A stretch of DNA of 64,000 nucleotides from Bacteroides mediterraneensis (GTDB lineage: Bacteria; Bacteroidota; Bacteroidia; Bacteroidales; Bacteroidaceae). Of this stretch, positions 46,131 through 63,947 are shown piece by piece (positions within the stretch are counted from its first letter, which is position 1; every line of letters begins with the position of its first letter). Both the position numbers and the translations under genes were made by a program. The stretch spans positions 2,381,935-2,445,934 of the forward strand of contig NZ_LT635783.1 of NCBI RefSeq assembly GCF_900128455.1. Reading direction: 5' to 3'. The notes under the pieces are model-generated. The model was not told where the DNA came from. It did no database searches and worked only from the letters and a program-made list of their open reading frames with translations.

Positions 46131-46202
46131 GCCCTAAAACCTTTCCGGATACCTTTTTTACGGCGTTTTTTCCCTGAAATACGCAAAAAAGAGGTGTCCG
46201 GA

Positions 46203-46234
46203 TTTGCATATTAAAATAAAAAGCCCTACCTTTG
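46203..46234 (+). promoter_or_regulatory. Promoter of the tRNA-Pro pair
   Basis: TTTG (46203-46206), a 20-bp spacer and TACCTTTG (46227-46234), 23 bp before the first tRNA. Confidence 0.65.
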
Positions 46235-46257
46235 CATCGCTTTTGAGAAAGACACTT

Positions 46258-46332
46258 CGGGGTGTAGCGCAGTCCGGTTAGCGCACCTGCTTTGGGAGCA
46301 GGGGGTCGTGGGTTCGAATCCCGCTACCCCGA
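46258..46332 (+). tRNA. tRNA-Pro (UGG)
   Basis: A complete 75-base cloverleaf: acceptor CGGGGTG/TACCCCG, anticodon arm CCTGC-TTTGGGA-GCAGG with anticodon TGG, and T arm GTGGG-TTCGAAT-CCCGC. CCA is not encoded. Confidence 0.95.
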
Positions 46333-46368
46333 CAGAAGTCAAGAAAAGTAAAAGTTATTACAAACGTT

Positions 46369-46443
46369 CGGGGTGTAGCGCAGTCCGGTTAGCGCACCTG
46401 CTTTGGGAGCAGGGGGTCGTGGGTTCGAATCCCGCTACCCCGA
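46369..46443 (+). tRNA. tRNA-Pro (UGG), identical second copy
   Basis: Identical to the first copy over all 75 bases, 36 bases downstream. It is the last host feature before the prophage, so its 3' end is a possible attachment site, although this is not proven here. Confidence 0.95.
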
Positions 46444-46446
46444 CAG

Positions 46447-46490
46447 AAAAAAGGCAACTTATCCGATGTGATGAGCTGCCTTTCTTTTTT
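46447..46490 (+). terminator. Terminator after the tRNA pair
   Basis: AAAAAAGGCA (46447-46456) mirrors TGCCTTTCTTTTTT (46477-46490), with a T tract. Confidence 0.75.
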
Positions 46491-46667
46491 GAGGTTATTC
46501 GAGGATTTCCGAAGATACAAGCCGAAAAACGAATTGTAAGAATTAATCAAAACGTTTTGTGTTGTTTTTATATTTATTAATATAAAACAAAATGTGATTT
46601 TTCTATTAATAATAGATTTAAAAATATATTCCAGAAATTAATCAGAATTTAAATAGAGCTTAATAAA
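46491..46667. other. A+T-rich gap with palindromes, possible attachment region
   Basis: No gene is seen. It holds a perfect 12-bp palindrome CAAAACGTTTTG (46548-46559) and then a TTTTATATT/AATATAAAA dyad (about 46566-46587). Such sites near a tRNA and a recombinase could be integrase arm or core sites. Confidence 0.35.
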
Positions 46668-46699
46668 AAAGTGGTCTACAAATTAATGTAGACCACTTT
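46668..46699. terminator. Perfect inverted repeat overlapping the end of the small gene
   Basis: A 13-bp perfect stem (46668-46680 with 46687-46699) with A and T tracts acts as a terminator in both directions. It contains the stop codon of the small gene. Confidence 0.7.
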
Positions 46700-46873
46700 C
46701 ATTAAAAGAGAGTCAGTTATCGTAAAGATTGCATGTATAACCAAACTTTTCCCGAAGGCGCGTGCATCTACAACTTCTGTTGTCCTAGAATCTGATAATA
46801 TTTTCTCTTCAGGTATTTCCGTCTCTTCAATTACTGCGGAAAGAATATTTCTGAATATGTCGCTTTTTGACAT
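46676..46873 (-). CDS. Small protein with DnaA-C-like start, 65 aa, perhaps truncated
   Basis: From ATG 46873 the frame reads SKSDIFRNILSAVIEE, then SRTTEVVDARAFG and a short unrelated tail. The first part resembles the DnaA C-terminal/helix-turn-helix type domains of small Bacteroides phage and element proteins, in which the VDAR block is followed by more helices. Here those helices are missing, and the frame ends inside a terminator stem, so it is probably truncated. A -7 element at 46905-46912 supports this start; the longer upstream frame is rejected because it crosses that promoter. Confidence 0.5.
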   Translation of the reverse strand: MSKSDIFRNILSAVIEETEIPEEKILSDSRTTEVVDARAFGKSLVIHAIFTITDSLLMKVVYINL

Positions 46874-46904
46874 CTGATATAATATATTGTGTTCGTAATT
46901 ATCA

Positions 46905-46912
46905 CAAATATA
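46905..46912 (-). promoter_or_regulatory. -7 element for the small gene
   Basis: Read leftward, TATATTTG matches TAnnTTTG, 31 bp before the start at 46873. Confidence 0.45.
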
Positions 46913-47092
46913 AGCATTTAATTTGATAATTAAAAGAATAAAGAGGGGATTATCACACTTGATAACCTCCCTCTTCGTTGCATTTAATAATTCATTATGA
47001 ATTATCGTCAACAAATATACTATTTTCCTGATTATTACTTGCATTTGTGGATATTTTTTCGTATCTTATAAGTGCATTTAATAAACATCATT

Positions 47093-48247
47093 ATGAAAAA
47101 AATCAAGTTTTCTGTCTACGCGAAAAGTGTTCGCGGAGGCATGGTTGGCATATATATAAGATGCCAACAGGGTGTTAGAATTGTACCTATTGATACAGGA
47201 GTACGTGTGTTTAGTGACGAGTGGGACGAAGATAACGGATTGATTGTTAACAATCCAAATTCTTTGGAATTAAACAGAACTGTAAGAAAATGTGTATATG
47301 ATTTGCAAAACATGGAGTATTCAAAATCAGAAGAAGGTATTTCTTTGAGTAGTCTAATTAAAATTTGGAATGAAAAAGATTCGTATCATGATTTTTATTT
47401 GTTCTTTGAGAATCATATTTCTACTGATAATATAAGAGATTCTACATCTAAATTACATAAAAACACTCTAGCTATGCTAAAATGTTATAAGAAAAAATGT
47501 TTATTATGTGATTTAGACGAAGACTATGTTGAAGGTTTTTATCTTTTTCTAAGAAATCACACATTCCTTAATGATAGGCGCTACGAATCTACTACGATAA
47601 AAAAACATCTTAAAATCCTACGAACATATTACAATAAGGCAAAAAAAATATATCCACGGCATGTTAATGATATAGATTTCTCAAAAATTCAAATTAAAAC
47701 TTCAGAAAAGCCTATTAAATCTTTAGAAGAAAACGATATAAAAATATTAGAGAAGATCGTTAATTGTGAGAAAAAAGAAAATGATGAATTAGTTGTATAT
47801 CAATTTTTATTTATGAGTTATACAGGATGCAGATATTCAGATTTCGTGTCTTTAAATGAAAGTAATCTCATTAAAGATCGTGAAACATTATGGCTAAATT
47901 ATACATCGATTAAAACAGGTGTTCCAGTAAAAATTCCTCTCAATCTTTTATTCGATGGTCGTGCTGAACAAATTTTATACAGATATAAAGACAGATTAAA
48001 ACATTTCTTTTCAATACCTAGTAATAGCACTTGGAATAAAAAGATACAAAGAATAGCAAAGAAATATGGAGTGATAAAACATATATCAGCACATATAGCA
48101 AGGCACACATTTGCTACAAGGCTATTAGCAAGAAATATACCATTAACTACAATACAAAAAGTTATTGGACATAGGAAACCTGAAACTACAATGATATATG
48201 CTAAAGTTAGTGATAATATGTTACTAACGCAATTTTCTAAGAAATAG
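47093..48247 (+). CDS. Tyrosine recombinase beside the invertible region (candidate invertase or phage integrase)
   Basis: The 384-aa protein has an N-terminal phage-SAM/arm-binding part, a core-binding domain (about residues 100-200) and a catalytic domain with Arg in TGCRYSDFV, Lys in SIKTGVPVKI, the AHIARHTFATRLL box, GHRKPETT and the nucleophile Tyr in MIYAKV. The full RKHRHY set is present, unlike the integrase at 10148. ATG 47093 was chosen over an upstream TTG. The gene reads toward the 140-bp inverted repeat that starts 43 bp after its stop, so it may drive tail-fibre inversion; a role in prophage integration is the alternative. Confidence 0.88.
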   Translation: MKKIKFSVYAKSVRGGMVGIYIRCQQGVRIVPIDTGVRVFSDEWDEDNGLIVNNPNSLELNRTVRKCVYDLQNMEYSKSEEGISLSSLIKIWNEKDSYHDFYLFFENHISTDNIRDSTSKLHKNTLAMLKCYKKKCLLCDLDEDYVEGFYLFLRNHTFLNDRRYESTTIKKHLKILRTYYNKAKKIYPRHVNDIDFSKIQIKTSEKPIKSLEENDIKILEKIVNCEKKENDELVVYQFLFMSYTGCRYSDFVSLNESNLIKDRETLWLNYTSIKTGVPVKIPLNLLFDGRAEQILYRYKDRLKHFFSIPSNSTWNKKIQRIAKKYGVIKHISAHIARHTFATRLLARNIPLTTIQKVIGHRKPETTMIYAKVSDNMLLTQFSKK

Positions 48248-48250
48248 AAT

Positions 48251-48280
48251 AAAAAAAGGAGGTTATTTCCTCCTTTTTTT
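48251..48280 (+). terminator. Terminator between the recombinase and the silent fibre cassette
   Basis: AAAAAAAGGAGG (48251-48262) and CCTCCTTTTTTT (48269-48280) form a perfect 12-bp stem with a six-base loop. It shields the silent cassette from recombinase transcription. Confidence 0.92.
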
Positions 48281-48290
48281 AGTGAATCTA

Positions 48291-48430
48291 CGCAAGTTCC
48301 GGCAGAACTTAGGACAGCAGGGCTTACCGTCAGCTTCATTAATTCAGATGGAGACACGGAGAAATGGGAGTTCGGCGGAGGTTCCTGGGCGGTCGGCGGC
48401 TTTGAGAAGGTAGGGGCTGGGAAACTTAGC
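48291..48430 (+). repeat. 140-bp inverted repeat, left copy
   Basis: Identical, apart from one base (48316), to the reverse complement of 55518-55657. It encodes the conserved fibre stretch running from QVPAELRTAG to KVGAGKLS in the same reading phase as the expressed copy. Confidence 0.95.
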
Positions 48431-50320
48431 TGGCTGTATGAGAATATATTTGGTATACCCATATTTTCAAAAGGTGGTATTGATGCAAACACTGGGAATA
48501 GTATAGAGAATTCAGGCAGGGTAAGGACTGATAACTTTTATAAGGTAGATTATAATTTAAAATCAGATGCTACTATTATAGTATATTTATATGACAAAGA
48601 CAAAGCGTATTTAGGTTACATATCAGCTAATTATAATCAAAAAAGTGAAACTGCATTATCTACATACCCATCAGCAGAATTTTCAAAGTTTTCTATTACT
48701 AAAACAGAATATACCCTATCAGGATATGCGTCTTCAACTAATAATAAAACACTGACAGAACTTAGTATTGACGTTGAAAAATTATCTGATAATGTTTTGG
48801 ATACAAAAAATATTTTATATGACAACATAATACCTATAGATTTAAATAACAAAAAATATTGGAGAGTTGGAGGCATTTCAAGCAGTGATGGTACGTTAAT
48901 TAACGACAAGACAAGGTTAAATACTTGTCTATTTCATTTCACAGAAAACTCCGATGTGAAACATACAAGGATAAATACAGATGTAACTGTTACTGGCTCG
49001 TATATATCTGTGTATGATGCTAATAAGAAGTATTTAGGATATGAATCTGTAAAAACTTTAATATCTGATATTATCAGTTTATATCCAATGGCATATTATT
49101 TTGCTAAAACTTTACACTTAACGGAAGATGCATCTGTAGATGTGTTTGGCTTAAATATTAAGATGTCTGACAATATTTACGGAACTGTAAGAGATTCTGT
49201 TATTGAAGCTCCAATAGAAGATATGCTAACAAATGCGATACCTACATTTACGACTGGTGGAATTGATGCAAGTACAGGAAATAATGTTGTAAATACAGGT
49301 AGAGTTTATACCCCCAATTATTACAGTGCAATAGATTACAAGATAAGATGTGACAATAATATTATTGCATATCTATATGATTCATCTAAAACATATCTTG
49401 GCTACATAAGTTCAGCAAGAATACAGAGCAGTGATATGGCTAGGTCTCAGTATCCTGAATGTGCTTTAGTTAGATTCTCAGTGACATCAACAGATATATC
49501 AAGCCTTACTGGTTATGTTAAAGAAAAAATAAAAGGTATTAAATCCTTAAATAATCAATTAGGAACTTCATCAAATAGATTAGAAGGATTAATATGGGCA
49601 TATTGCGGAGATAGTTTTAGCTATGGTGGTTATTCTTCTTCTGAAATAACAGATGCTGATAAAATGCCACAAGATAGTATGTATGCTGGACAAAATAAAG
49701 TATATGGCTATATTATTGCAGATAGAAATAATATGATATTACAAAATATGTCTATGGGTGGAAGAACACTAGCAACTCCAGCTGATGGTTCTTTCACTAA
49801 TGCTTTTACCAACATCAATAATCAAGTATCTAATAGTAATTATAAACAGATTAGAGAAGATGCTAACATAGCAACTTTTTATTTCGGGATAAACGACAGC
49901 CACCATAGACCTGGAAGTGGTGGAGGAGACGGTGAAGATAATACTGGAGAAATAGAAGTAGGAACTATTGATGATGAAACCGAAAATACTTTTTATGGAG
50001 CGTGGAATGTTATGCTTAAATGGGTTATTGAAAATAGACCATTTACTAAATTAGGTATAATTGTCTCTAATGGATGCGAAACAGATGAATATCGTGTAGC
50101 TACAATAGCTATAGCAAAAAAATGGGGCATTCCTTATATTGACATAAATGGAGATGAAAGAACTCCTATGATGTTAAGAAGTACTAATCCAAACATTTCT
50201 TTTTCTGCAAAAGAAGCTAGACTTAATAGTCAGAGAATATCATCAACAAATTCACATCCTAATACAAAAGCGCATGAATATGAAAGTACATTTATTGAGA
50301 ACTTCTTACGAAGCTTGTAG
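48291..50320 (+). CDS. Silent alternative C-terminal cassette of the tail fibre
   Basis: The frame is open from the terminator through the repeat to the stop at 50320, but the shared part has no start codon and no promoter. The first usable in-frame start is a TTG at 48797, deep inside the domain. After the repeat it encodes 629 residues: three related beta-rich modules (each with a YLYD/YLGYIS-type core, about 100 residues) and a C-terminal SGNH hydrolase domain with CGDSFSYG, FGINDSH and SHPNTKAHEY. Joined to the 190-codon constant part it would give an 819-aa fibre. The SGNH domain may remove acyl groups from surface glycans. Confidence 0.85.
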
Positions 50321-51009: not shown

Positions 51010-51511
51010 TCACAGACCACGTAAAAAGTTTTCAATGAATGCACTTTCAAACTTATGTGCTTCCACGTTAGGATGGCCATTTTGGGGGGAAACTTTATAT
51101 TGTGCAGTTCTTAATGACACAATATTAGATGGTATATTCTGTTTTTGCACTTTAAAGGTTTGTCTATAAAAGTATGGGACTTTTTCGCCTTCTTCATTAA
51201 TACACAACAATCCATATTTTTTTGCTATCTCTACGGTAGCATTTGAATATTCAATAGTGTCGCAACCATTAGATGCTATAAGTCCTATTTTTGCATTTTG
51301 TCTATTGGTTATAAGCCATGTCAAAATATAATTCCACGCTCCATAAAAAGTGGTTGTATCATCACTATCAATATCACCGATTGGAACACTTTGGTGGCTA
51401 TCATTAATACCAAATTTTAGCGTAATGTAATCACTATCTATGGGTATCTGATTTAGCTTTTCCTCATTCGCGTAATCTATTAATTTAGCTCCATTGACAG
51501 CTAAATTGGTT
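51010..51511 (-). pseudogene. C-terminal part of the tail fibre, separated by the IS21 element
   Basis: This piece carries the end of the SGNH hydrolase domain (FGINDSHQS, ASNGCD, GHPNVEAHKF) and stops with ENFLRGL, closely parallel to the silent cassette's ENFLRSL. Its frame joins the N-terminal piece exactly if the IS and one AAACT copy are removed, giving an intact RNNMKLTNLAVNGAKLID junction and a 749-aa protein. In the present state its only start would be an IS-derived ATG at 51573 (a 187-codon frame), so it is probably not made. Confidence 0.85.
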
Positions 51512-51516
51512 AGTTT
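51512..51516. repeat. Target site duplication, left copy
   Basis: AGTTT on this strand (AAACT on the fibre strand), matching 54340-54344 directly outside the other IS end. Confidence 0.88.
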
Positions 51517-51521
51517 TGCTG

Positions 51522-51565
51522 AAAACGGTTGATATCCGTTCACCCAAAACGGTGATATCCGTTCA
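51522..51565. repeat. Inverted transposase-site repeats at the left IS end
   Basis: Two copies (51522-51542 and 51546-51565) of the reverse complement of the TGAACGGATATnCTCCGTTTT repeat seen at the other end. Confidence 0.8.
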
Positions 51566-51598
51566 CTTTTCATACTCTTTACCTATGGCGATGCAAAT

Positions 51599-52354
51599 TT
51601 ATTGATTTTCGTCTGTAACGTTGCAGTTTTGATGTCTTTTTTGACGTAAACTGCTGCCTTGTAGCTCGAAGCGCACACTTGTGTGTACCAACCTGTCTAA
51701 TATTGCATCAGCTGCAGTCGTGTTGCCTTTCATCACATCGTACCAGTTGGCAACCGGCAGTTGTGATATGATGATCGTAGCTTTTTGTCCATGGCGGTCT
51801 TCTATAATCTCCATAAAGTCAAGTAACTGTTGTCCGTCAAGAACTTTCATGCCGAAGTCGTCCAGTATAAGCAGGTCAGTCTGTGCCAGCTTGGCGAAGA
51901 AACGATGCAGGGTACTGGATATACGGGCAAGGCTTATTTCCTCGAAGAGCCTGTACAGGTTATAATAAGCAACCTTATATCCGTTCATGCAGGCCTGATG
52001 ACCAAACGCTGTACCCAACCAGCTTTTACCGGTACCGGCAGCACCCGTAATAAGTATGGATACCCCGTTTTTCACATAGTCACAAGTGGCAAGATTAAGT
52101 ACTTTCTGCTTGTCCACGCCACGCTTGCAGTCATAGATAACTTCACTTATGGAAGCCTGATAACGGAAGTGTGCTTTTTTTATCAGACGGGCATTCCGGC
52201 TTTGATTCCGGTTATCCAGTTCAGCCTGTATAAGCAGTTGCAGACCGTCTTTCAAGGAGAGCGACTCTGCCTGTCGCGTCTCCTGCATGGTAGCCCAGTA
52301 ATGGGCCATTCCAGGCATCTTAAGGTTTCTTAGAGCATTGATAATTTCATCCAT
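51599..52354 (-). CDS. istB: IS21 ATP-binding helper protein IstB
   Basis: The 251-aa AAA+ ATPase has Walker A GAAGTGKSWLG (about residues 103-113) and Walker B LLILDDFGM (about 155-163). It follows istA by 29 bp and assists transposition by controlling target choice. Length and motifs are intact. Confidence 0.95.
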   Translation of the reverse strand: MDEIINALRNLKMPGMAHYWATMQETRQAESLSLKDGLQLLIQAELDNRNQSRNARLIKKAHFRYQASISEVIYDCKRGVDKQKVLNLATCDYVKNGVSILITGAAGTGKSWLGTAFGHQACMNGYKVAYYNLYRLFEEISLARISSTLHRFFAKLAQTDLLILDDFGMKVLDGQQLLDFMEIIEDRHGQKATIIISQLPVANWYDVMKGNTTAADAILDRLVHTSVRFELQGSSLRQKRHQNCNVTDENQ

Positions 52355-52383
52355 CGTTATTTGTTTTGAGTGTTAGAAGTCTG

Positions 52384-53946
52384 TCATTTGAACTGTGCTT
52401 TTCCACGGATATTACAGTGCTGCGGAGGAGCAAAGGAAGATGAAGGTTGCCCCACACCGGCACACTTGCTCTCTACCAGTAAACGGATAAAGCGATAGTT
52501 GCATCTGTCTACATTCAGGGCTGCCTCGCAGGCTTTTTGGAAAACGACCGGATCACTGCTCCTTTGCAGGTTTAGAAGCCCGTCGCAGGTCTTGTAATGA
52601 GTCTCCGGAGGCATTGTGGAAGAATAAAATATGCGGCGGATTACATCTCCCAGTATGCCGGATGCACGCTCGGCACGCTCTATGTATGATTTTGCACTCA
52701 TCCCTCTGTATTCCCGGGAATTGCTTGCAAGATGCTCCTTTACGATAGTATACTTTCCCCTGTTGTAATCACGTAGGTGAGTGGCTACAAGCTCACCGTC
52801 CACATATACTTTTACCAGTGTGCGTGTATATGCGACATGTGCGGTTTTGGATATATACTGATACGGTACTGTATAATAGTGCTGGTCACGTCCAAGATAG
52901 ATACAGCAGTTGGTTGACACCTTCAAATCGGTATATGACACAATCTCAAAATCTCTGTCAGGCAGTGGCATAAGATTTGGCTTGTCTACGGCAAGGAACC
53001 GTTCCTCACGCGTGTAAGGATGCTTTTGCATGCGTTTCTGGTTGTGCGCTTTCATTTTGAGTGAGGCTGCCCGGTTAAGCTCTTCCAGTGAATGGAAGGT
53101 TTCATTGCGGAGTTCGGCAAACACACGCATATAGACAAGCCTCACGGTCCCTTCCACGTTGCTTTTATCTTTAGGGTGTACGGGACGTGCCGGTATGATG
53201 ACCGTACCGTAATGATTGGCCATATCCTCCATTACACGGTTAAGTGAAGGCTCATATCTGTCGGTCTTGACAACAGCAGCTTTAAGGTTGTCAGGGACAA
53301 GCATCTTTGGTACGCCGCCAAGATGTTTCAGGCACTGCGTTATGGCATATACAAAGTCTTCTGTACGCTGTGAACGTACGAAGAGGATATAACCGTAGTC
53401 GCTTGCAGGCAGAGTGGCTACAAAAGCCTGACACTGGACGACCTCACCGGTTTCCATGTCAACGTATCCCATAGTATCACCGGCAAAATCGAGGAAAAGC
53501 TTTTCGCCGCCCGTACGCATGTCGGCAAGTATGGTGGATGGCGACTCCTTCCTGGCCTCTGTGTTCTGATTGTAATGAAAACGGAACTGTGTCAGGCTGT
53601 AGTGGTCATCCGGATGCTCATTACGGTATTCTTCCCAAAGCAGCTTCAGCGTGACATGCTTGCGCTTCATCTCCTCCTGAAGATATGGAAGAAGGGCTTT
53701 GAATGTTTCAAAACGCTTGTCGCTATATGCAGGATTGCCGCCCTTGAGACGGTGCTCAAGAATGGGATCATCCAACCTGATAAGTTCATCAAGGCTCAGA
53801 CTGTCAGCGTTGACCTTATTCATGTAGTTGTTCACTGTCTCCTTGTTCATGCCGATTATATCAGCAGCCTTGCGGTTGGAGATTCCGCTCTTCTTTAGTA
53901 GAAGAAGTTGTTTGATCTGGCTCATATTCTTACTTTTTCCTGCCAT
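52384..53946 (-). CDS. istA: IS21 transposase IstA
   Basis: The 520-aa protein has an N-terminal helix-turn-helix (SGISNRKAADIIGMNKETVNNY) and a DDE integrase core with Asp in LFLDFAGDT, Asp in VPDNLKAAV and Glu in KSNVEGTV. A C-terminal beta domain ends in a Pro/Ser-rich tail. It catalyses strand transfer of the element. The gene looks intact, so the IS may still be active. Confidence 0.95.
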   Translation of the reverse strand: MAGKSKNMSQIKQLLLLKKSGISNRKAADIIGMNKETVNNYMNKVNADSLSLDELIRLDDPILEHRLKGGNPAYSDKRFETFKALLPYLQEEMKRKHVTLKLLWEEYRNEHPDDHYSLTQFRFHYNQNTEARKESPSTILADMRTGGEKLFLDFAGDTMGYVDMETGEVVQCQAFVATLPASDYGYILFVRSQRTEDFVYAITQCLKHLGGVPKMLVPDNLKAAVVKTDRYEPSLNRVMEDMANHYGTVIIPARPVHPKDKSNVEGTVRLVYMRVFAELRNETFHSLEELNRAASLKMKAHNQKRMQKHPYTREERFLAVDKPNLMPLPDRDFEIVSYTDLKVSTNCCIYLGRDQHYYTVPYQYISKTAHVAYTRTLVKVYVDGELVATHLRDYNRGKYTIVKEHLASNSREYRGMSAKSYIERAERASGILGDVIRRIFYSSTMPPETHYKTCDGLLNLQRSSDPVVFQKACEAALNVDRCNYRFIRLLVESKCAGVGQPSSSFAPPQHCNIRGKAQFK

Positions 53947-54255: not shown

Positions 54256-54339
54256 TCAGGCACTTTTCAAGGCCAATTTAGCGGTAAAACTGGATGGATT
54301 AAGCCGTTCAGAGTGGGTGGGGATGCTCCGTTTTCGGCA

Positions 54340-54344
54340 AGTTT
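54340..54344. repeat. Target site duplication, right copy
   Basis: AGTTT on this strand, paired with 51512-51516. Confidence 0.88.
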
Positions 54345-55517
54345 CATATTGTTTCTCTTTGCAATCCACCAAGGATATGTTTTGTACATTTTCAAATCAT
54401 AATCATATATATTATCATTAAATTCAGTATCAGGTGTTGTATTGCCATCTTCACCAGCGTTGGCAAAATCTCCATGGGTGAAACTATCTCCCAAAGAGGT
54501 ATAGGATTTCCCTGATAACACATTTCCGGTTCCTATTATTTTCTTTTCTAGTGATTTAATTATTTTTTCGTTACCTGAAAAAGAAGAATCATCTGATTTC
54601 TTAAAAGAAAAGCGAATCAACATATCACTGGTTATTTCGGTAGTGGAATTTAACCGCTTTAAGAAATTACCTGTTAAGTCATAGGCCACAATGTTTTCAA
54701 TACTATAGCCTTCATTTAAAGAATAATTATATGCGCCAGATAAAAATCCAGTTGTTGTTCTATTACTATTATTACTAGCAGCAAGTTCTCCATCAGTGCT
54801 GCTTGCGTAGTATCCGTATATGTAATTGACAATACTACCAGATTGTTTAATTAAGTCATTTTTTGTGGATTTTATATTTTCATCAATCTGTGGCTGTTTT
54901 TTAGCTAATGCTGTCAAACCTGCATTTAATCCGATTTCTAAACTTCCAGTTAAACCAACAACATATACCCAAAGGCTGCTAATGTCTTTGTCGCAGTAAT
55001 GATAATAATCTTTATCATTCTCCATATAATCGAACAATCTATCAGAATTGTTCCCATTTATTCCGATTAAAAGTCTATTCCAACTTCCATCACTTTTAGG
55101 CCTTATATTTAAATAAGAACCTTTCTTGATTGAAAAACTTGCAAACGTTGTTTGTTGGCTATCAGGAGTGTCCGTAACATTATAAGTACCTATAAAGCTA
55201 TTATTATCAATAAAGTGTAAAGATTTAATAGCTTGTTCATTGCCATTGAAAACAGAGTCATCAGTCTTAACAAATGTAATTCTAGTTAATAGTCCAGTCT
55301 TATCGTCATTTATGCCTAAACGCTTTACATATTCACCTGTTAAATCAAATGCTACAATATTTTCAATACGGTAACCTTCATTTAAAGTAATAGTATAGTT
55401 CCCTCTAATATACCCAGTAGTACATCTGTTTATTGAATAAATCAAAGCACCATCAGCACTGCTTGTGTAATATCCGTATATGTAATTGATAACACTACCA
55501 AATTTATTTTCCAGATT

Positions 55518-55657
55518 GCTAAGTTTCCCAGCCCCTACCTTCTCAAAGCCGCCGACCGCCCAGGAACCTCCGCCGAACTCCCATTTCTCCGTGTCTCCAT
55601 CTGAATTAATGAAGCTGACGGTAAGCCCTGCAGTCCTAAGTTCTGCCGGAACTTGCG
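55518..55657 (-). repeat. 140-bp inverted repeat, right copy (inside the expressed fibre gene)
   Basis: Reverse complement of 48291-48430 with one mismatch. It ends exactly at codon 190 of the fibre, so exchange at any point within it keeps the frame. Confidence 0.95.
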
Positions 55658-56091
55658 CAATAGCCCCTGCAAGGTCATATCGGTTCGATCCTGACGTTCC
55701 GCTGGTTGGATGAAAAACAGATACATTATACTCAGCAGTAGCTTTCTTTGCATAGTCTTCTACGTCTTTCAAGTCTTCTTTAGTTGCATAGTCGTTTAGA
55801 TCAACAGAGTCTGCATCAGGAGCCTTAGTCGTATTATGCCATGCTCCATTGCTTTGCACGTCATACACCGTTCCAGGGTAAGGTTCTCCCACAAATGCAG
55901 TATCTCCAACTTTAGGGGATGGATATGCCTGTTTAAGTGCTGTTTCAGTTGTAAAGTATCCCTTAAACTTTGTAGTCGAAGATTTTACTTTTTCCAAATC
56001 CACATTTATGTTTTGGAAATTTGAATTGATTGTACTTGCTGCGTCACCCCAATTCGATTCTTTTTTTATTTCAGAAAGGTTTGCCATATAG

Positions 56092-59000
56092 TTACTGTCT
56101 TAATGTTTTTATAAAATAATGAACTTCAGATTGGGTCAATGGACCTGGGTTCAATATGCTTCTGAGAATACATACCATGCCAAGCACATCACCTTTACTC
56201 AACACAATCTCTGTCATCTCATTTCCATTCTGGTCGAATAGTTTTGCTCCATCAGAAAGATGTATCGCAAATTCAGAGTTGTTCTGTACTGAAACGCCTA
56301 TGAAAGATGAATAAGCAGGAACAAGTATGTCTATATAAAATCCATTTGCGCCCATTTCAATTCCAGGTATTTTTTCAGAAATTTGCTGAAAGTTTGGAAG
56401 AAGAACTTCAAATCTGCCCGTAGTGAAAGTGTTAAATATAAGTTCATAAATCTGAGCACGACCTATATTATTAATAATGAAATTACGAATAAAATCTTCG
56501 TTGTTAGGTATTAGGTTAAATCCCGACATCGAACCCAACACAGTCATGCTATATCCAAGCAATGCTCCATTTGCATTTACGCGAAGTCCTCCAAGTTGTG
56601 ACCCTTCTCCGGCTTCGAGGACTCCATTTACCTTTAACCTGTCACCCGTGAAGTCAATGAACGGTTTCTGCCCATCTTTCTTTCCTATCCATCCGGTTCC
56701 ATCCGCATTGAGACGTGTCACTCCGTCACCCAAATCTACTATGCCCATGAAATATCCTCCCAGGGCATAGATGTATCCACGAATAAACACATCGCCTCCA
56801 TGCGTTGCCACGAACTTCGCCATAGACTTCCATTCTTCATCTGTAGGCGTTTCTCCTCCAAGTATTTTCTGTACTGTCGCGATGGCTTCTTCATACGTTC
56901 CACCAGACCACACAGACACATCTGTGTCATCATTGTAGATTCCACTGATACCTGCATTTACTTTCTCCATGACACCATTAACCCATTTCCCTACCTGTAT
57001 CATTGAAGTTAACACAAGGCCTCCGTTCACTTCTGTACTTCCTTTCATTGCATCCTGCAAGTACCAAAGATGCTTAAATTCATCTTTAACTGAATCAGGA
57101 TCTAAGACAGAAGGACACCAGTCTGTTGGTATCGTACCACGTTCCAGCTTAATGTCACATATTGTAGCACTTCCTGAGATTGTAACTGATGTGACATTGT
57201 TGTTGGTAAACACATGAGAATACTTTTTGTAATCGTTAGTCAGATTTTGAGTAATCGTACTTCCTCCGACAACAATCTGTAATAAAGTTCCTTTTGCTTT
57301 GTAGCTTATTACATAATTTTCATCTTGAATGAGCATTAATCCTTGTGAAAGTCTGCCTAACGTAGCAGATACACCGGATACTGCATTTGAATCTTCATTC
57401 AGAGTTGCTGTACCACTCCACTTGTAGAGTGTCGTGTTATACATCTTTGTATTCTCTTGTAGGGGAGTTGCTGAATCAAGTTCTAATGTTTCATAATTCC
57501 CTAAAAATCCTGTATTCAGCAAAAGGTTTTCACCACCTATCTTTACTGCACTATATATCTCATCAGGTAAATCAGTAAAGTTACCTGCTCCTGTTGAACC
57601 TGATTCGATGCTGACTTTACCCTTTACTTCCACACCATTTTCTTGGTCGTACTTTACATAAGTGCTTTCATCTTTCGCTCCAACGTATGAGTCTCCGTAT
57701 GTGACTTCCTTGAAACGGCCTGTGACCACATCAAAATATTCATCTTTGATTACCTTACCGACAAGGCTGTATGAATTGATTTCCTGATACATCTTGCGTG
57801 AAGGTGAGTCAGACCCGTAGGCGGAATAAATCTGTGCGTTCTGTCTCGTTACGTCCGTGCGGTTTCCTAACTGAGAAACCTGATCGCCGGCCTGCGGAAT
57901 GTCGCTTCCTATATCTGCATCGGTTTTTGAAAACACCACATAATCATCTCCTATTTCCGTAACAAGTCGCCACCAGTAACGATTTCCTACCTGTCCGTTT
58001 TCCTGCTTCTCAAGATTGAATGTTTGGCAACGTCCTTGGTCGTCTTTTTCAAATTCATTATAAATTGTACGTCCATCACTGTTTTTCTTATTAAAATAGC
58101 ATTTGTATCCTGTATCTGTTTCTTGCACGCTGGAGATAATCATGGAAGCCGGAGATATAATCAGTGCTCCACCAATGTGTTTGAGCTCCTGCACCGTAAT
58201 TTCAGTGAAAAGGGCTTTCTTACGGATGTTCAAATAATCAAACTCAGCATGAGAGTTTCCGTCATCGTCTATCTGTATAGCTCCCCCAGTTCCAAGCAAA
58301 CCGGATACAAATTTTCCCAGTTCAATCCCTTTCATGAATCTTTGAAGATACGGGTTTTCGTCCGTTTTGTCCTTCCGATGAAATCTTAAAAGAGAAGCCA
58401 AAGCAGAATATACATTATTGTCAGAAGGTGTATTCCTATCTATACTTTTCAGTATATCAATCATCGTCTGTTCCGCCTGTCTGGACACTTCATACCGAAG
58501 CGAGTTCAACGAGTTATCTACCGATGACTTCCACCCCGTCCCTACCTCATCCGAGCAGGTAATCGTGGCTTGACACAAGTCATTCAGCTTGCGCTGCACC
58601 TTGGTAATACGAGTATCCTTGTATCCACCGGTGGTGCCAAAATACTGTTCTGACAGCAGACGCACGTTCCACCCGATGCGTAGCGGTGTATTATTCTTTT
58701 CTATGTAGTTCCGGTCCGTGGTTCCGGTGTATTTGTTAGGGTCAAAGCTGTAGGTATTCAGAAAGTCATCGACAGCCTGTTTGTACGCCTGTTCCGCTGC
58801 AGTAATGTACTCCTGCGGCATGGCGAAGTTCCACGGAATGTATTGGTCGCCTGGAGTTGGGATAATCGCTCCGCCAGGTATCTGGGTCGTATCATCCGGA
58901 TATACGTTGATGATTTCCCACTCTCCAGTGTCTTCGTGCCATGCGGCCTGAAAGGAACCGTCAGTCCCTCGTCCTGCAAGTTCGCCCGTCTGGAACTGAA

Positions 59001-59928
59001 TCATATAGTCCAAATCCGGGATCTCGTAGTCTTTCGGATTCCAGTTCATTCCGTTGTCCTTGAAGTAATATACGGTGTACTTCCGTCCTTCCTCGCTGGT
59101 TTTCTCTTCCGTGCGAACCGACGAAACCGTACCCACATACTGAGGATATATCTCAGCAAACGCAGCTTCTTCCGTTTCTTCCTTCACGCCGTACAAGTCT
59201 ACGTTCTTGTCCACATATATTTCCCTACTTGGAAGTTGCAGACGAGAATACCCGTACTTCGTCGCATCAATATTGCGTGTGCTGCCCAATGGGAACAGAC
59301 GGGTAAAGAACTTTACTTCTCCGTTATCTTCCTGTGCCAGATTGGTAAGTCCTTGAAGGTATCCCAGCTCTACTACTTCTCCTCGTTCAGCTTTGCAAAG
59401 ATTAATTACATAACCATCCGCCCACATTTCTGTGCCGAAAGTCTCTGCAATACCGTTACTACCGAAAGCCGCATCCCAGCACTTTACGTTCCGGTAGTCG
59501 ATAGTTTTGTTTTCAGCAGTAATCACGGTTCCGATGCTCCACAAGTTACCACCGGCACGGCGGTTCATGTTGTCAATCCATAACTGGAGGTGTTCGCGCG
59601 GACCACCGTCGTAACTGAATTCAGATGTGGTACCACCTTCCTGGAACAGCATCAGCGTATCTTCCGCGTCGTGTATTGGCGCATAGAACTTCACGCTGTA
59701 TTCGTAAGTCTGCGTGTTCTTCTGCTTCGGACGATAACGGGACTTCACCTTGTATCGCACGCCTTCCAGTTCGATGTAGTCATCCACATCCAGCGGCACG
59801 TATGAGGTATGTGTGAAGGATGCAGATACGCTGCATTCTCCACCTATTTCCTCTGTGACGGTAGAAGAAGTGTTCGGACTGGCTGTCAGTCGAAGATTGT
59901 TGGCTTTATCGTATATTTTCAGTTCCAT
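56092..59928 (-). CDS. Phage tail hub/endopeptidase-like structural protein
   Basis: The 1278-aa protein begins with a baseplate-hub-like domain (MELKIYDKANNLRLTASPNT; KQKNTQTYEYSVKFYAP), then a long mixed region with repeated beta elements, and a distal half with carbohydrate-module-like ENLLLNTGF and a collagen-free shaft ending in glycine-rich turns (GDGVTRLNADGTGWIG). It corresponds in place and size to the Tal/tail-lysin-like proteins that connect the tail tip to the fibre in siphophages. It lies between the distal-tail-like gene and the fibre gene, four bases from the latter. Confidence 0.8.
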   Translation of the reverse strand: MELKIYDKANNLRLTASPNTSSTVTEEIGGECSVSASFTHTSYVPLDVDDYIELEGVRYKVKSRYRPKQKNTQTYEYSVKFYAPIHDAEDTLMLFQEGGTTSEFSYDGGPREHLQLWIDNMNRRAGGNLWSIGTVITAENKTIDYRNVKCWDAAFGSNGIAETFGTEMWADGYVINLCKAERGEVVELGYLQGLTNLAQEDNGEVKFFTRLFPLGSTRNIDATKYGYSRLQLPSREIYVDKNVDLYGVKEETEEAAFAEIYPQYVGTVSSVRTEEKTSEEGRKYTVYYFKDNGMNWNPKDYEIPDLDYMIQFQTGELAGRGTDGSFQAAWHEDTGEWEIINVYPDDTTQIPGGAIIPTPGDQYIPWNFAMPQEYITAAEQAYKQAVDDFLNTYSFDPNKYTGTTDRNYIEKNNTPLRIGWNVRLLSEQYFGTTGGYKDTRITKVQRKLNDLCQATITCSDEVGTGWKSSVDNSLNSLRYEVSRQAEQTMIDILKSIDRNTPSDNNVYSALASLLRFHRKDKTDENPYLQRFMKGIELGKFVSGLLGTGGAIQIDDDGNSHAEFDYLNIRKKALFTEITVQELKHIGGALIISPASMIISSVQETDTGYKCYFNKKNSDGRTIYNEFEKDDQGRCQTFNLEKQENGQVGNRYWWRLVTEIGDDYVVFSKTDADIGSDIPQAGDQVSQLGNRTDVTRQNAQIYSAYGSDSPSRKMYQEINSYSLVGKVIKDEYFDVVTGRFKEVTYGDSYVGAKDESTYVKYDQENGVEVKGKVSIESGSTGAGNFTDLPDEIYSAVKIGGENLLLNTGFLGNYETLELDSATPLQENTKMYNTTLYKWSGTATLNEDSNAVSGVSATLGRLSQGLMLIQDENYVISYKAKGTLLQIVVGGSTITQNLTNDYKKYSHVFTNNNVTSVTISGSATICDIKLERGTIPTDWCPSVLDPDSVKDEFKHLWYLQDAMKGSTEVNGGLVLTSMIQVGKWVNGVMEKVNAGISGIYNDDTDVSVWSGGTYEEAIATVQKILGGETPTDEEWKSMAKFVATHGGDVFIRGYIYALGGYFMGIVDLGDGVTRLNADGTGWIGKKDGQKPFIDFTGDRLKVNGVLEAGEGSQLGGLRVNANGALLGYSMTVLGSMSGFNLIPNNEDFIRNFIINNIGRAQIYELIFNTFTTGRFEVLLPNFQQISEKIPGIEMGANGFYIDILVPAYSSFIGVSVQNNSEFAIHLSDGAKLFDQNGNEMTEIVLSKGDVLGMVCILRSILNPGPLTQSEVHYFIKTLRQ

Positions 59929-60398: not shown

Positions 60399-63300
60399 TC
60401 ATTTCAGTGTTATACCGTTCAATTTCATATCACTCAATATCTCGTGTATCTCCACCAGGTGTGCCGTATGTCCGGCTATGGTGGCCAACGTCTGGCTGTC
60501 CTGCTTCTGCGTGTTGCGGATTTCCTGCACAAACTTGTCCGTATTGGCCAGATGCGTCTGCATGTTTCGTCCTATTCCTTCAAAGGTGGATATGCTGTCC
60601 TGGCTCATGGTGGTCAGCGCACCGCTGCTGGGAGACTGGCTGCTTCCGGAATCCGCAGATGAAGACCATCCGAAAGCATTCATTATCTGTTCTCGTTCGG
60701 CGAGCATATCGTCTACAATACTCTGATATTGATTGCGTAGCATTTCAGCTTCTTTTTCGTCAAGGCCTTTGTTTATCTCTGTTTTACCATGTGAAAAAAA
60801 ACTTGCCTTAGAAGGATCATACACGATAGTGCCATCTGCCGCTTCTTTCGCCCATGAGTCATATAAGCTCTGAATTCTTTCTTTATACTTATCCGCAACC
60901 ATTGAGGAGAATATCGCATTCTGTAGATACTTTTCGAAATTATCCGCAAAATCCTGATTTGTGGCATCGAGGTCCGACAGCATACTGGTAAAGCTGTCAC
61001 GGAATTCGTCAAAACTGACTCCGGTAAATGCTTCCTTCTCCTGTTCGGCAATTTCCTGCAACTGTTCGCTGTACTTGTCAATATTCTGAATGTAGGTCAC
61101 AAACTCAGAGTTGACAGCGGTCAGTACCGACACAAACTTTTCGTCTTGAAGCACCTTACCTATGACATCTTCATCCAGGTTGATTACATCGCCAAATTCA
61201 CGTATATTCGCTCCGGTCAGTTCTGAAAGTCTGTCCCAGTCCGAACTGCTCATACGGTCATTTACACGGTATCCAAGAGAGTGACTACCGATGCTTGACC
61301 CGCTTCCAGAAAGAGAATGCATCAGCTGCCGCTGGCGTTCAATCTGCACATCTACCAGTTTCTTCGCTTCCTCGGCTGCTTTCTGAGCTTCTGTTCCGTA
61401 GTCTATGTCGATGTATTCCTGCTTTTTTGATATAAGATCATCCCAGATTGTAATCAGTCCCTCATACTTCGACTTCATATTTTCATAGCCGGAATAATCC
61501 GCCCCGCCGAAACCAAACAGTCCGGCTATGGTGTTCCCTACTCCAGTCAGAATCTTAATTGAGCCAGTAATGGCACTGAAAGGTTTTGTCAAGTCGATAC
61601 TTTCCAGTCCACTCATTACCTGACTTACTCCATTCAGTGTATCCGTAACCGCTTCCGGAACCTTCACGCCAAAGTTTTCCAGCATGTCCACAATGTCGTT
61701 TCCGGCATTGACAACAGCCATTCCCTTTTGCCCGATGGAATTAGCCGCTTCCGTCAGACTTTTCTGTGCGCTGTATCGTTTATCCTGTGCAGCACGCAAT
61801 TTTTCTTCGGCTTCGGCCTGTGTGACCAACTTACGGGTAATCGTTCCTGTCGCTTCGTCGTATTCCTCTACAATTACGCTTCCGCCCATCTGTGTCTGGT
61901 TCAACAGATTTTGGGCTGAGCGCACTTCCTCCATTGCCGACTTGTAGTCCTCGTAGCCTTTCTTCATCGTTTCGAACGGGGAACGGTCGGCCAGTTCGGA
62001 GTCAATATCCTTGAACGCATCCATTACTTCCTTGAAGGACTCGGGGCTGATGTCATCGCCTATGCCTTCCAGGTATTCCTTCAACTTTTCGCGAAGGCTT
62101 TCCAGTGTATCGGTGGAAACCCGTTCCAGATCACCGAAGATTTTGTCCCAGTCCATCCCTTTCTTCATTTCCTCGAAGTCCAGGTTGGCCAGCTTGTCGT
62201 CGCGTTCACGCACAAGTGTGTTAGCTTCTCCTTCCGTTTCCGCAGCGGCAATCTTCCGGGCGTAATCCATTGCAATGGCCAGACGCTTTTCCTGATATGT
62301 GCCGTATTGTTTATTGTAGTCGATAAGGCTTTGTGTGGCCTTGTCGCGATATTCCTGTTCAATCTGATAGATCTTTTCGTTGTACACCTGTTCCGCCAGC
62401 ACGCGGTTGGTGTTAGCCGTGTTCTTCACTTCCTCATACTGGCTCTGAGGAATGTTGTCACCTTGCTTCCGTGCCTGGTTCATCTTCTCCACTGTATCGC
62501 GCTCTTGCTTGTCGATTTCGGAAATGCTGTCATCGTATTCCTGCTTGGCCAGTGCCATCCGCTTTGCAATACCTTCCTGCATAATCTGTATGCGGAGTTT
62601 CTCTGTAGTCTGTTGTGCTTTTACGCGGGCATCAGCCAGCTGGGAGGCATAGTCTGTCTTTTCTTTGTTTGTTCCTGTTCCTGTTTTAGTTCCTGAAAAA
62701 TCAGTACTGTAAGCTGATGTGTCTATCTGTTTGACTACACCTTCTACTATTTTATTGTTTTTTGCAATTTCATCAGAGTACTTCTTTATGTTTGACATGC
62801 GCCGCTCGTATTCTTCAATCAGTTTCCCTTCTGCTGTATTACTAATCCATGATTTTGCAGCACTATCTACAATTGCACTTCCTTGATTTACTTTACGATA
62901 ATTTTCCCACATTTTATCGCGTTCCTTCAATGCAGCTTCGTATGCGGCCTTGTTTTGATTTGTCCAATTTGTGTCCGCATTGATGCCACGCTGCAACTGG
63001 AAGTTTTTCTTAGAATAATCAGACACAATATCTTCAGCCGCCTGTGCCTGTCCCTTACGGATAATTGCTTTGGTCAGTTCATCATAAGCTGAAGCCGCAT
63101 TTCCAGCCAAAATTGCTTCATTGCTAAGCTTCCCAAAGTAATCAGGATACATTTTTTGCAATTCATCCACCGCTTTGTTCCTTTCTCTCATGGATTTAGT
63201 GGAATCTTGCGTAGCAGTATATAATATCTTGAGTTTAGCTGATTCTTCCGAAGCTGATTCCCCTCCCTTTCTTCTTGCGCTGTTAAGTTGTTCTTGTAGT

Positions 63301-63947
63301 TTTTGCGTTTCGGAAAGTTCTTTTTTTACGTTGAATAAAGACGATAACCATCCGGAAATCTGCTTATTGAATACAATTATCAATGTTATTGCAGTAACCA
63401 GTCCGGTCTGCCAGCTGAACAAGGAACTTACCAGCTGCTTCCATACCGGCACGCTCTTCTGACCAGATGCAGCCAAAAGTTCATTCTGTTTGCGTACATC
63501 CGCGATGGCATCCGCTAACATCGGGAGGTTGTTGGAGATAGCGAGGATAAACATCTGCGGCCCCATTGCCAGCGAAGGCAGCTCTCTTGCCACCTGACTG
63601 AACTGCATCTTCAGGTTGTTTGTTTTACGCGTAACGGCTTCCGTGTCGATGTCGATTGAAGGTGTTTTGGCTGCCTCCTCTTTTGCTTTCTGCAAGTCTT
63701 TCAGACCAGCTTTCAATCCGTTGATTTGTCCGGTCAAAGCCTGTACGTTGGCCGCTTCCTGCGTGTATCTTTTTCCGGCTTGCTTGTTCGCTTCAAGCTG
63801 CTTGATCTGTTCGGCACGTACCTGCTTCAATGCTTCAATCAGTTTCATAGTCTGATTTTCCACATCATCCACATTCTTACCCACGCTCTGTAGTCCGGCC
63901 TTGGTAAGGTCTTTCATGAATATTTCCAGTTCCACAGGTACTGCCAT
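60399..63947 (-). CDS. Phage tail tape-measure protein
   Basis: The 1182-aa protein is mostly alpha-helical: an N-terminal coiled coil (residues about 1-110), a hydrophobic segment near 175-200 (WQTGLVTAITLIIVF), then long Lys/Glu/Gln-rich coiled coils, and a Gly-rich hydrophobic stretch near 770-850. This is the usual tape-measure layout; the length implies a long tail, since tail length scales with tape-measure length. The first gene upstream of the tail hub group. Confidence 0.88.
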   Translation of the reverse strand: MAVPVELEIFMKDLTKAGLQSVGKNVDDVENQTMKLIEALKQVRAEQIKQLEANKQAGKRYTQEAANVQALTGQINGLKAGLKDLQKAKEEAAKTPSIDIDTEAVTRKTNNLKMQFSQVARELPSLAMGPQMFILAISNNLPMLADAIADVRKQNELLAASGQKSVPVWKQLVSSLFSWQTGLVTAITLIIVFNKQISGWLSSLFNVKKELSETQKLQEQLNSARRKGGESASEESAKLKILYTATQDSTKSMRERNKAVDELQKMYPDYFGKLSNEAILAGNAASAYDELTKAIIRKGQAQAAEDIVSDYSKKNFQLQRGINADTNWTNQNKAAYEAALKERDKMWENYRKVNQGSAIVDSAAKSWISNTAEGKLIEEYERRMSNIKKYSDEIAKNNKIVEGVVKQIDTSAYSTDFSGTKTGTGTNKEKTDYASQLADARVKAQQTTEKLRIQIMQEGIAKRMALAKQEYDDSISEIDKQERDTVEKMNQARKQGDNIPQSQYEEVKNTANTNRVLAEQVYNEKIYQIEQEYRDKATQSLIDYNKQYGTYQEKRLAIAMDYARKIAAAETEGEANTLVRERDDKLANLDFEEMKKGMDWDKIFGDLERVSTDTLESLREKLKEYLEGIGDDISPESFKEVMDAFKDIDSELADRSPFETMKKGYEDYKSAMEEVRSAQNLLNQTQMGGSVIVEEYDEATGTITRKLVTQAEAEEKLRAAQDKRYSAQKSLTEAANSIGQKGMAVVNAGNDIVDMLENFGVKVPEAVTDTLNGVSQVMSGLESIDLTKPFSAITGSIKILTGVGNTIAGLFGFGGADYSGYENMKSKYEGLITIWDDLISKKQEYIDIDYGTEAQKAAEEAKKLVDVQIERQRQLMHSLSGSGSSIGSHSLGYRVNDRMSSSDWDRLSELTGANIREFGDVINLDEDVIGKVLQDEKFVSVLTAVNSEFVTYIQNIDKYSEQLQEIAEQEKEAFTGVSFDEFRDSFTSMLSDLDATNQDFADNFEKYLQNAIFSSMVADKYKERIQSLYDSWAKEAADGTIVYDPSKASFFSHGKTEINKGLDEKEAEMLRNQYQSIVDDMLAEREQIMNAFGWSSSADSGSSQSPSSGALTTMSQDSISTFEGIGRNMQTHLANTDKFVQEIRNTQKQDSQTLATIAGHTAHLVEIHEILSDMKLNGITLK

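Follow-up and report, generated by a model that had tools for sequence, protein, structure and literature searches.

A tyrosine recombinase gene beside an inverted repeat as the probable invertase of a two-state tail-fibre switch in a Mu-like Bacteroides prophage

A tyrosine recombinase gene lies directly beside a long inverted repeat in a prophage of Bacteroides mediterraneensis, and its position raises the question of whether the enzyme integrates the phage or inverts its tail-fibre locus. The initial annotation favoured a dedicated invertase, acting instead of or in addition to phage integration, and our analysis of the window, by which we mean the whole 64,000-nucleotide stretch that was analysed, supports this reading: the phage has the genes of Mu-type integration, relatives of the enzyme have inverted sites beside them, and the repeat holds a core site of SusC type. 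On the strength of these sequence comparisons we hold, with a probability of about 0.88, that the encoded enzyme is dedicated to inverting DNA in a two-state tail-fibre switch, which lies at the fibre end of a transposable prophage of Mu-like (Hankyphage) type.

Table 1. Coordinates, within the window, of the features at the fibre end of the prophage.
Feature	Position	Strand	Basis or remark
Left end of Mu-like prophage	46516..46640	+	begins TACAAGCC
Small ORF between phage end and recombinase	46676..46870	-	weak DnaA C-terminal HTH similarity
Tyrosine recombinase, proposed fibre invertase	47093..48247	+	384 aa; Pfam, PHROGs, alignment
Terminator-like stem-loop between recombinase and silent fibre arm	48250..48281	.	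scan lists minus strand
Inverted repeat, recombinase-side arm, opens silent fibre allele	48291..48430	+	140 nt
Proposed crossover site AAGTTCCGGCAGAACTT	48294..48310	+	outer edge of repeat; sequence comparison with relatives
Silent alternative fibre C-terminal half, GDSL-like domain	48291..50320	+	Pfam below cut-off; PHROG
Detached 3' end of in-place fibre allele, severed by IS	51010..51573	-	phrog_5240 4.6e-8; GDSL below cut-off
Presumed IS21-type insertion sequence within GDSL-like part of in-place allele	51599..53946	-	
Presumed IstB-like gene	51599..52354	-	
Presumed IstA-like gene	52384..53946	-	
Tail-fibre gene: constant N-terminal part and allele in place, IS-truncated	54267..56087	-	606 aa
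Inverted repeat, fibre-side arm	55518..55657	-	AAGTTCCGGCAGAACTT copy at 55638-55654
Minor tail protein, conserved in Hankyphage-type phages	56092..59928	-	N-terminal third aligned
Tape measure protein	60399..63947	-	phrog_9959 2.8e-43

The recombinase gene is intact, running from an ATG at 47093 to a stop codon that ends at 48247; the list of open reading frames puts the start upstream at a GTG (47072), and the end coordinate of 48290 given initially takes in the gap between gene and repeat. That gap, from the gene end to the arm start at 48291, is exactly 43 bp, as first described. The protein matches Phage_integrase (4.8e-20) and Phage_int_SAM_5 (9.3e-12) in Pfam, and all six residues of the catalytic set noted at the outset are present (R247, K274, H334, R337, H360 and Y369) together with the PF00589 catalytic domain. 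The lysine, both histidines, the second arginine and the tyrosine are invariant in 58 of 58 aligned sequences, and R247 is found in 48 of the 58. The Pfam search returned only the Phage_integrase and SAM-like domains, with no serine recombinase catalytic domain. PHROGs classes the protein as an integrase, and an NCBIfam search of it and five relatives gave only generic matches below the cut-off, as did another integrase of the same genome. The small ORF upstream has a match to PF08299 under the curated cut-off (E 1e-4) and no PHROG match.

The two arms of the repeat match at 139 of 140 positions, with one mismatch, and the second of them falls within the tail-fibre gene, at a distance of 7.1 kb from the first; an inverted repeat of 140 bp and 99% identity cannot be chance. 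Directly outside the recombinase-side edge identity drops to 25-28%. At this edge lies AAGTTCCGGCAGAACTT, a 17-bp near-palindrome with 6-bp inverted half-sites around a 5-bp centre, past which the repeat continues for only 3 bp on the outer side, the arrangement expected if crossover takes place there and all DNA inward of it is exchanged. The site is placed at the edge at several SusC loci as well, where homology runs from the other half-site. As at the SusC/SusD invertase loci, an inverted pair of sites of the AGTTC-N5-GAACT type stands beside the recombinase; the three or more short asymmetric crossover sites of the Rin systems were not found, the locus having two arms only. When the translated site region of the fibre repeat was used as a probe, it matched 3 of 301 genomes of the family, this genome included, and no phage record, so the coding sequence of this repeat is rare.

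In the mechanism that we propose, the enzyme would pair the two AAGTTCCGGCAGAACTT sites by binding the near-palindrome at the edge of each arm, cut and rejoin within the site centre, and thereby flip the 7.1-kb segment, so that either of two C-terminal halves would be fused in frame to a constant N-terminal part of 145 aa. Integration of the phage would be left to MuA and MuB. A stem-loop between the recombinase and the silent allele, described at first as a strong terminator, is indeed present and has the longest stem of the four terminator-like sites in 1.5 kb (mean of 0.3 in shuffled sequence), with 13 pairs in an AT-rich sequence of which four are G-C. The sequence is nearly symmetric and was listed by the scan for the minus strand alone; its role as a putative terminator of the recombinase transcript is plausible, and in that role it would keep this transcript from reading into the silent allele.

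The constant part of the fibre is in frame with both of its own arms. The silent half reads open for 674 aa from the site, without a start of its own, and matches the tail-fibre family phrog_5240 (1.7e-10) and, below the Pfam cut-off, GDSL; the fibre piece at 54267-56087 matches no family of Pfam or PHROGs. An insertion sequence interrupts the allele in place; from its translations we take it to be IS21 with IstA and IstB, and its left end is matched at 12 further places in the genome at 98-100%. The fibre is consequently 606 aa long as sequenced, cut by the insertion, and would be 819 aa long and intact if flipped; in the sequenced state the phage should carry a truncated fibre. The assembly holds a single copy of the locus, in one orientation, and the second orientation was not found in it. 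One other record (L036) is 100% identical across 11.6 kb in the same orientation and is probably the same genome. The broken allele and the single orientation would also fit a switch that formerly worked and is now locked, for instance by the IS21 insertion or by lost expression of the recombinase. We consider this unlikely, as the recombinase, the silent allele and both arms are intact and the arms still agree at 139 of 140 positions. We therefore infer a working switch inverted by this recombinase, in which the crossover would fall at the proposed site, the stem-loop may act as outlined above, and inversion may alter receptor choice.

Counting this one, 61 genomes of the genus were compared, of which 45 hold a match to the recombinase at E 1e-40 or better. 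Sites were compared at 47 loci, made up of 37 of the 53 places listed in other genomes (taken mostly best matches first), two further places in this genome and eight virus, phage or GTDB loci; a partial match (L143) and one of 30% identity (L144) were left out. Scans of IMG/VR and of GTDB genomes, which reach close relatives only, gave no relative of the recombinase except an identical copy (L036) in IMG/VR. Over the 47 loci, which are not independent because L138 and L168 represent a single prophage and L150/L151/L153, L158/L159 and L177/L178 are near-copies, AGTYYYBGCNGAACT occurs as an inverted pair at 27, a copy being at most 1.5 kb from the recombinase, and STGGVRGRACT on both strands at 13, seven of them virus or phage records. 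Reversed-pattern controls gave 0 of 48 for both site types. One of the two inverted kinds of site thus stands near the recombinase at 40 of 47 relatives, at two of them weakly: the record of L106 starts with a cut at position 1 and has its opposite-strand copy 48 kb off, and L164 is unclear in its context and was grouped by the tree with the SusC rows. At the other 7 of 47 neither pair is present. All 27 loci with the SusC-type pair fall among the 32 with a SusC-like gene, as called by a tblastn search whose query was a single SusC-like ORF from this genome. A stricter pattern, AGTTYYSGCVGAACT, matches 17 of 48 loci (control 0), a count from which the present locus is missing solely because a single arm lay within the stretch used. 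The locus studied here has the SusC-type pair of sites without a SusC gene: over the 20 kb that start at 46401 the SusC score is 0, and the target is the fibre gene.

The same kind of site recurs in the host chromosome. The first site pattern that we used included the variant of this locus; the repeat search used AGTTCCGGCCGAACTT, the relatives' exact consensus without that variant and the exact site of several of them, yet it was chosen after both had been seen. With up to one mismatch, AGTTCCGGCCGAACTT occurs at three places in the 4.08-Mb genome, the two fibre arms and a SusC locus at 3563487 (control 0). A looser pattern has six matches genome-wide (control 1), of which two are in the fibre arms and three at the SusC locus. 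The sixth, the sole match outside these loci, is a single AGTTCTGGCAGAACT at G000:C1:100486-100500. The host SusC switch (L167, G000:C1:3552500-3572400; also L010) has sites AGTTCCCGCCGAACT, the site AGTTCCCGCCGAACTT and, at 3561804, its own related recombinase, of 32% identity; SusC sites lie at C1:3555089, 3561415 and 3563488. In the phage the 5-bp centre of the site reads CGGCA, two bases apart from CCGCC in the host, and the identity of the exchanged centre normally matters for tyrosine recombinases. This difference argues against a switch that is real but worked mainly in trans by the host SusC/SusD invertase, with the phage gene diverged or weak, and so does the phage gene itself, which is intact, retains all catalytic residues and adjoins its own site as its relatives do. 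We regard such a dependence on the host as quite improbable, even though the host switch with AGTTCCCGCCGAACTT and a related recombinase shares the genome, the phage recombinase forms a long branch, and Tsr0667 of B. fragilis acts beyond one locus, at three SusC/D clusters and nine other regions according to the available part of PMC4747536.

In a tree from which the 11 outgroup rows, L164 and L188 were omitted, 12 recombinases (11 from phage shufflons, and L172) form one clade with support of 100/100 and the present enzyme falls outside it. A SusC-recombinase clade without this enzyme, which has a very long branch, was not rejected (p-AU 0.259). When the 11 other integrases of the genome served as the outgroup and L138 was omitted, support was weak both for the place of this enzyme and for the split of these recombinases from the 11 integrases (72). 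By these trees the enzyme is not a member of the phage-shufflon clade. Given the long branch and an identity of at most 34% to any relative, it is chiefly the shared site on which a function can be assigned by comparison with the relatives.

Evidence on how the phage integrates comes largely from beyond the window, where there are a transposase (phrog_310, 3.5e-90; assigned by PHROGs, with no Pfam family) and MuB (phrog_296, 1.1e-55), as well as Portal_Mu (1e-67) and Phage_Mu_F (2.5e-15) by Pfam. The gene order is that of Hankyphage p00, and the transposase is 38.5% identical to that of BK010646. The prophage extends over 42,416 bp from window position 46516 to G000:C1:2470865 (..GCCCGTA), and a 4-bp duplication, AAGA, stands before its left end (46512-46515) and again after its right end; MuA, MuB, the Mu portal, F and a target duplication, which mark Mu-like phages of Hankyphage type, are thus all found. 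Ends of this kind also bound the relative G020 (36,773 bp, duplication CACA), and the Hankyphage p00 and Porphyromonas phage records have TA at both ends, which the BKO1-TP4 record does not; the end points here were picked with the ends of p00, the Porphyromonas phage and G020 in view. Matches to the host DNA of relatives end short of the left end and resume beyond the right. The repeated motifs after TACAAGCC are putative transposase sites. Motifs of GGTATCCCCAA are repeated directly inside the far phage end (G000:C1:2470440-2470525), and repeats of AAACGCAAGTGC type stand directly outside it (2470909-2470994) and recur at C1:1264092. No tRNA-like direct repeat was found between 46101-47120 and C1:2468900-2471100, the longest being 12 bp and AT-rich. 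Because the MuA and MuB genes and the 4-bp duplication are present and an att-like repeat is not, transposition is very probably the way in which the phage inserts, and it has no need of a tyrosine integrase; the check for another integration enzyme suggested at the outset has thus turned one up.

The recombinase nevertheless lies 577 bp inside one prophage end, its nearer tRNA-Pro gene of two is 0.65 kb away and its PHROGs category is integrase, all of which would suit a phage integrase acting at attL/attR beside tRNA-Pro and close to the repeat simply because integrases sit at prophage ends. We judge this very unlikely: integration at tRNA-Pro was rejected by the direct-repeat search and the mapped ends, MuA and MuB are present, a 4-bp duplication and TA ends take the place of an att repeat, and inverted sites stand next to 40 of the 47 related recombinases. 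A Phage_integrase match is, moreover, absent from Hankyphage p00, BKO1-TP4, a Porphyromonas Mu-like phage and G077, which indicates that such phages can do without one; a match is present in 5 of 12 records, those of this phage, G075, BS-TP2 (two, the second an annotated integrase), G078 and G074. Mu replicative transposition makes joined copies and RecA could recombine a 140-bp repeat, so that the enzyme might resolve multimers or cointegrates while the repeat flips by homologous recombination only, a proposal that we consider exceedingly improbable in view of the inverted SusC-type site on both arms, which at the stringency of AGTTCCGGCCGAACTT is found elsewhere in the genome only at the SusC switch, and of several Mu-like phages that lack such a gene.

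A dedicated fibre invertase in this position can be compared with what other phages carry at the same slot. In G075, whose transposase is 95% and minor tail N-terminal part 84% identical to those of this phage, the slot holds a tyrosine recombinase and eight alternating copies of GTGGGAGGACT, each opening 81-108 aa, and all eight arms (L124:1-3713) begin with VGGL. L193/L139 has a minor tail part of 95% identity, six CTGGCGGRACT sites and a G075-type recombinase, and at both G075/L136 and L139/L193 the recombinase is beside the minor tail gene. The sites at L139:6137-7951 are CTGGCGGAACTTATTGG, of which one copy also fits the SusC-type pattern; by sequence, this site looks intermediate between the two types. 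A second prophage of the same genome (L168 7764-10510, equal to G000:C1:2537763-2540509; L138) has a short-site switch of GTGGGAGGACT type and a tyrosine recombinase that shares 84% identity with the G075 enzyme. Among phages with G075-type enzymes, inversion between records is visible in 3 of 66 record pairs, most pairs sharing little beyond the recombinase: L140 886-1194 aligns with BS-TP2 880-572 at 98% and L141 3132-3609 with BS-TP2 585-108 at 97%, both segments being bounded by sites, and a third inverted pair, L141 and L173, covers only 57 bp. Inverted repeats of at least 25 bp were not found in the scanned stretches of G020, G077, G075, G019 and BS-TP2, the short sites of G075 having been found by k-mer counting; G020 matches G077 and neither has a long repeat, and the contig of G014 stops after 12 kb with no fibre end. 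The recombinases of G078 and G074 are distant (22-27%), that of G074 lying at the far end of a 90-kb contig. In G078, which is Mu-like with a transposase of 58-59% identity, a 422-aa tyrosine recombinase (L128:9239-10507, 22-24%) stands beside fibre-like genes in 20 kb with no exact inverted repeat longer than 14 bp, so a tyrosine recombinase near a fibre need not mean a switch.

A retroelement occupies the slot in p00 and, by reverse transcriptase match, in two Mu-like prophage regions of G019; L192, which covers the present phage from 48.4 kb to past the window end, has no match to the p00 reverse transcriptase. Compared with that enzyme, the reverse transcriptases at L121:5914-7215 (99%) and L119:11581-12693 (32%; G019) and at L134:3937-4998 (54%; G074) are of varying identity, and the last has a distant tyrosine recombinase some 2.8 kb away. 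Among 23 IMG/VR loci with the minor tail gene and a 10-kb flank, a related recombinase was found at L193 and L196 and a retroelement reverse transcriptase at L204, figures that carry no claim of prevalence since many loci are short fragments and L192, which is this phage, has its recombinase beyond the flank.

Phage Mu has a two-state tail-fibre inversion, the G segment, at one end of its genome, and the locus described here resembles the Gin/G segment of Mu and the Cin system of P1 in that a switch of this kind would operate at an end of a Mu-like genome. Both Gin and Cin belong to the serine recombinases, as stated in the available part of PMC6109161, whereas the enzyme here is a tyrosine recombinase. 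Hankyphage p00 (BK010646) shares the transposition genes, gene order, TA ends and a variable fibre at the same end; it differs in that its fibre is varied by a diversity-generating retroelement and in having no Phage_integrase match. In the shufflons of G075 and BS-TP2 type, too, the alternative fibre tips adjoin a gene for a tyrosine recombinase, which in G075 and L193 lies downstream of the minor tail gene, just as in the present phage, but these systems work with many short sites (GTGGGAGGACT, CTGGCGGRACT) and enzymes of the separate 12-member clade. With the SusC/SusD shufflon invertases of Tsr0667 type the enzyme has in common a similar length (384 aa against mostly 385-389, up to 411), an AGTTC-N5-GAACT-like core at the edge of a long repeat and a gene adjoining one arm; here, in contrast, the target is a phage tail fibre rather than a TonB-dependent transporter, with two arms, in a transposable phage and at no more than 34% identity. 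Tsr0667 is placed at SusC/SusD in the available part of PMC11852207, and we infer that the SusC loci here are of its type. The Rin enzymes of bifidophages (PMC6109161) and those of Eggerthella prophages (PMC8778435) are similar in being phage-borne tyrosine recombinases that are beside receptor-binding-protein arms and separate from the integration enzyme. In the portions available, PMC6109161 describes for Rin several 11-bp asymmetric sites and the lack of an arm-binding N-terminal domain, and PMC8778435 describes Rin-type switching in Eggerthella; the present locus differs by its two long arms, its near-palindromic site and its setting in a Mu-like Bacteroidales phage. The view that a tyrosine-type phage fibre switch would be unusual thus holds, though such switches are not unprecedented, given Rin, Eggerthella (PMC6109161, PMC8778435) and the Bacteroidales phages above.

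Hankyphages are widespread in Bacteroides according to the available parts of PMC12135933 and PMC6199706, the former of which describes the Hankyphage with its retroelement; the words 'recombinase' and 'integrase' are both absent from its available text. A tyrosine fibre switch in a Bacteroidales phage is not described in the available portions of PMC3090145, PMC5903667, PMC2535602, PMC8042965 and PMC12118408, nor in any of the matches listed from the open-licence literature without preprints, as far as their available text extends. PMC2535602 does note that a tail gene of a B. fragilis phage is rearranged and in part inverted, and PMC5903667 reports inversions around the tail fibres of prophages in four Proteobacteria species. 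Within the bounds of the open-licence literature, the Mu-like setting, the SusC-type site and the in-place fibre arm broken by IS21 look new.

Our findings suggest that a broad phage group, to which the widespread Hankyphages belong, has a modular slot at its fibre end, which can hold a retroelement, a many-site tyrosine shufflon or, as here, a two-state tyrosine switch of SusC type. The allele cut by the insertion sequence permits a clean assay of the switch described here, since a broken fibre should result one way and an intact fibre the other. A further idea, which we hold to be rather doubtful, is that phage and host share one recombination code, such that each enzyme may act on the switch of the other. 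The fibre is the binding part of the phage and SusC/SusD transporters are what some phages could bind; if the idea were true, a nearly identical 16-bp site and related enzymes in the same cell would mean that receptor and anti-receptor switching may be coupled or biased. The near-identical site, which at the stringency of AGTTCCGGCCGAACTT this genome has at both places and nowhere else, provides a concrete, testable tie between host surface switching and phage fibre switching.
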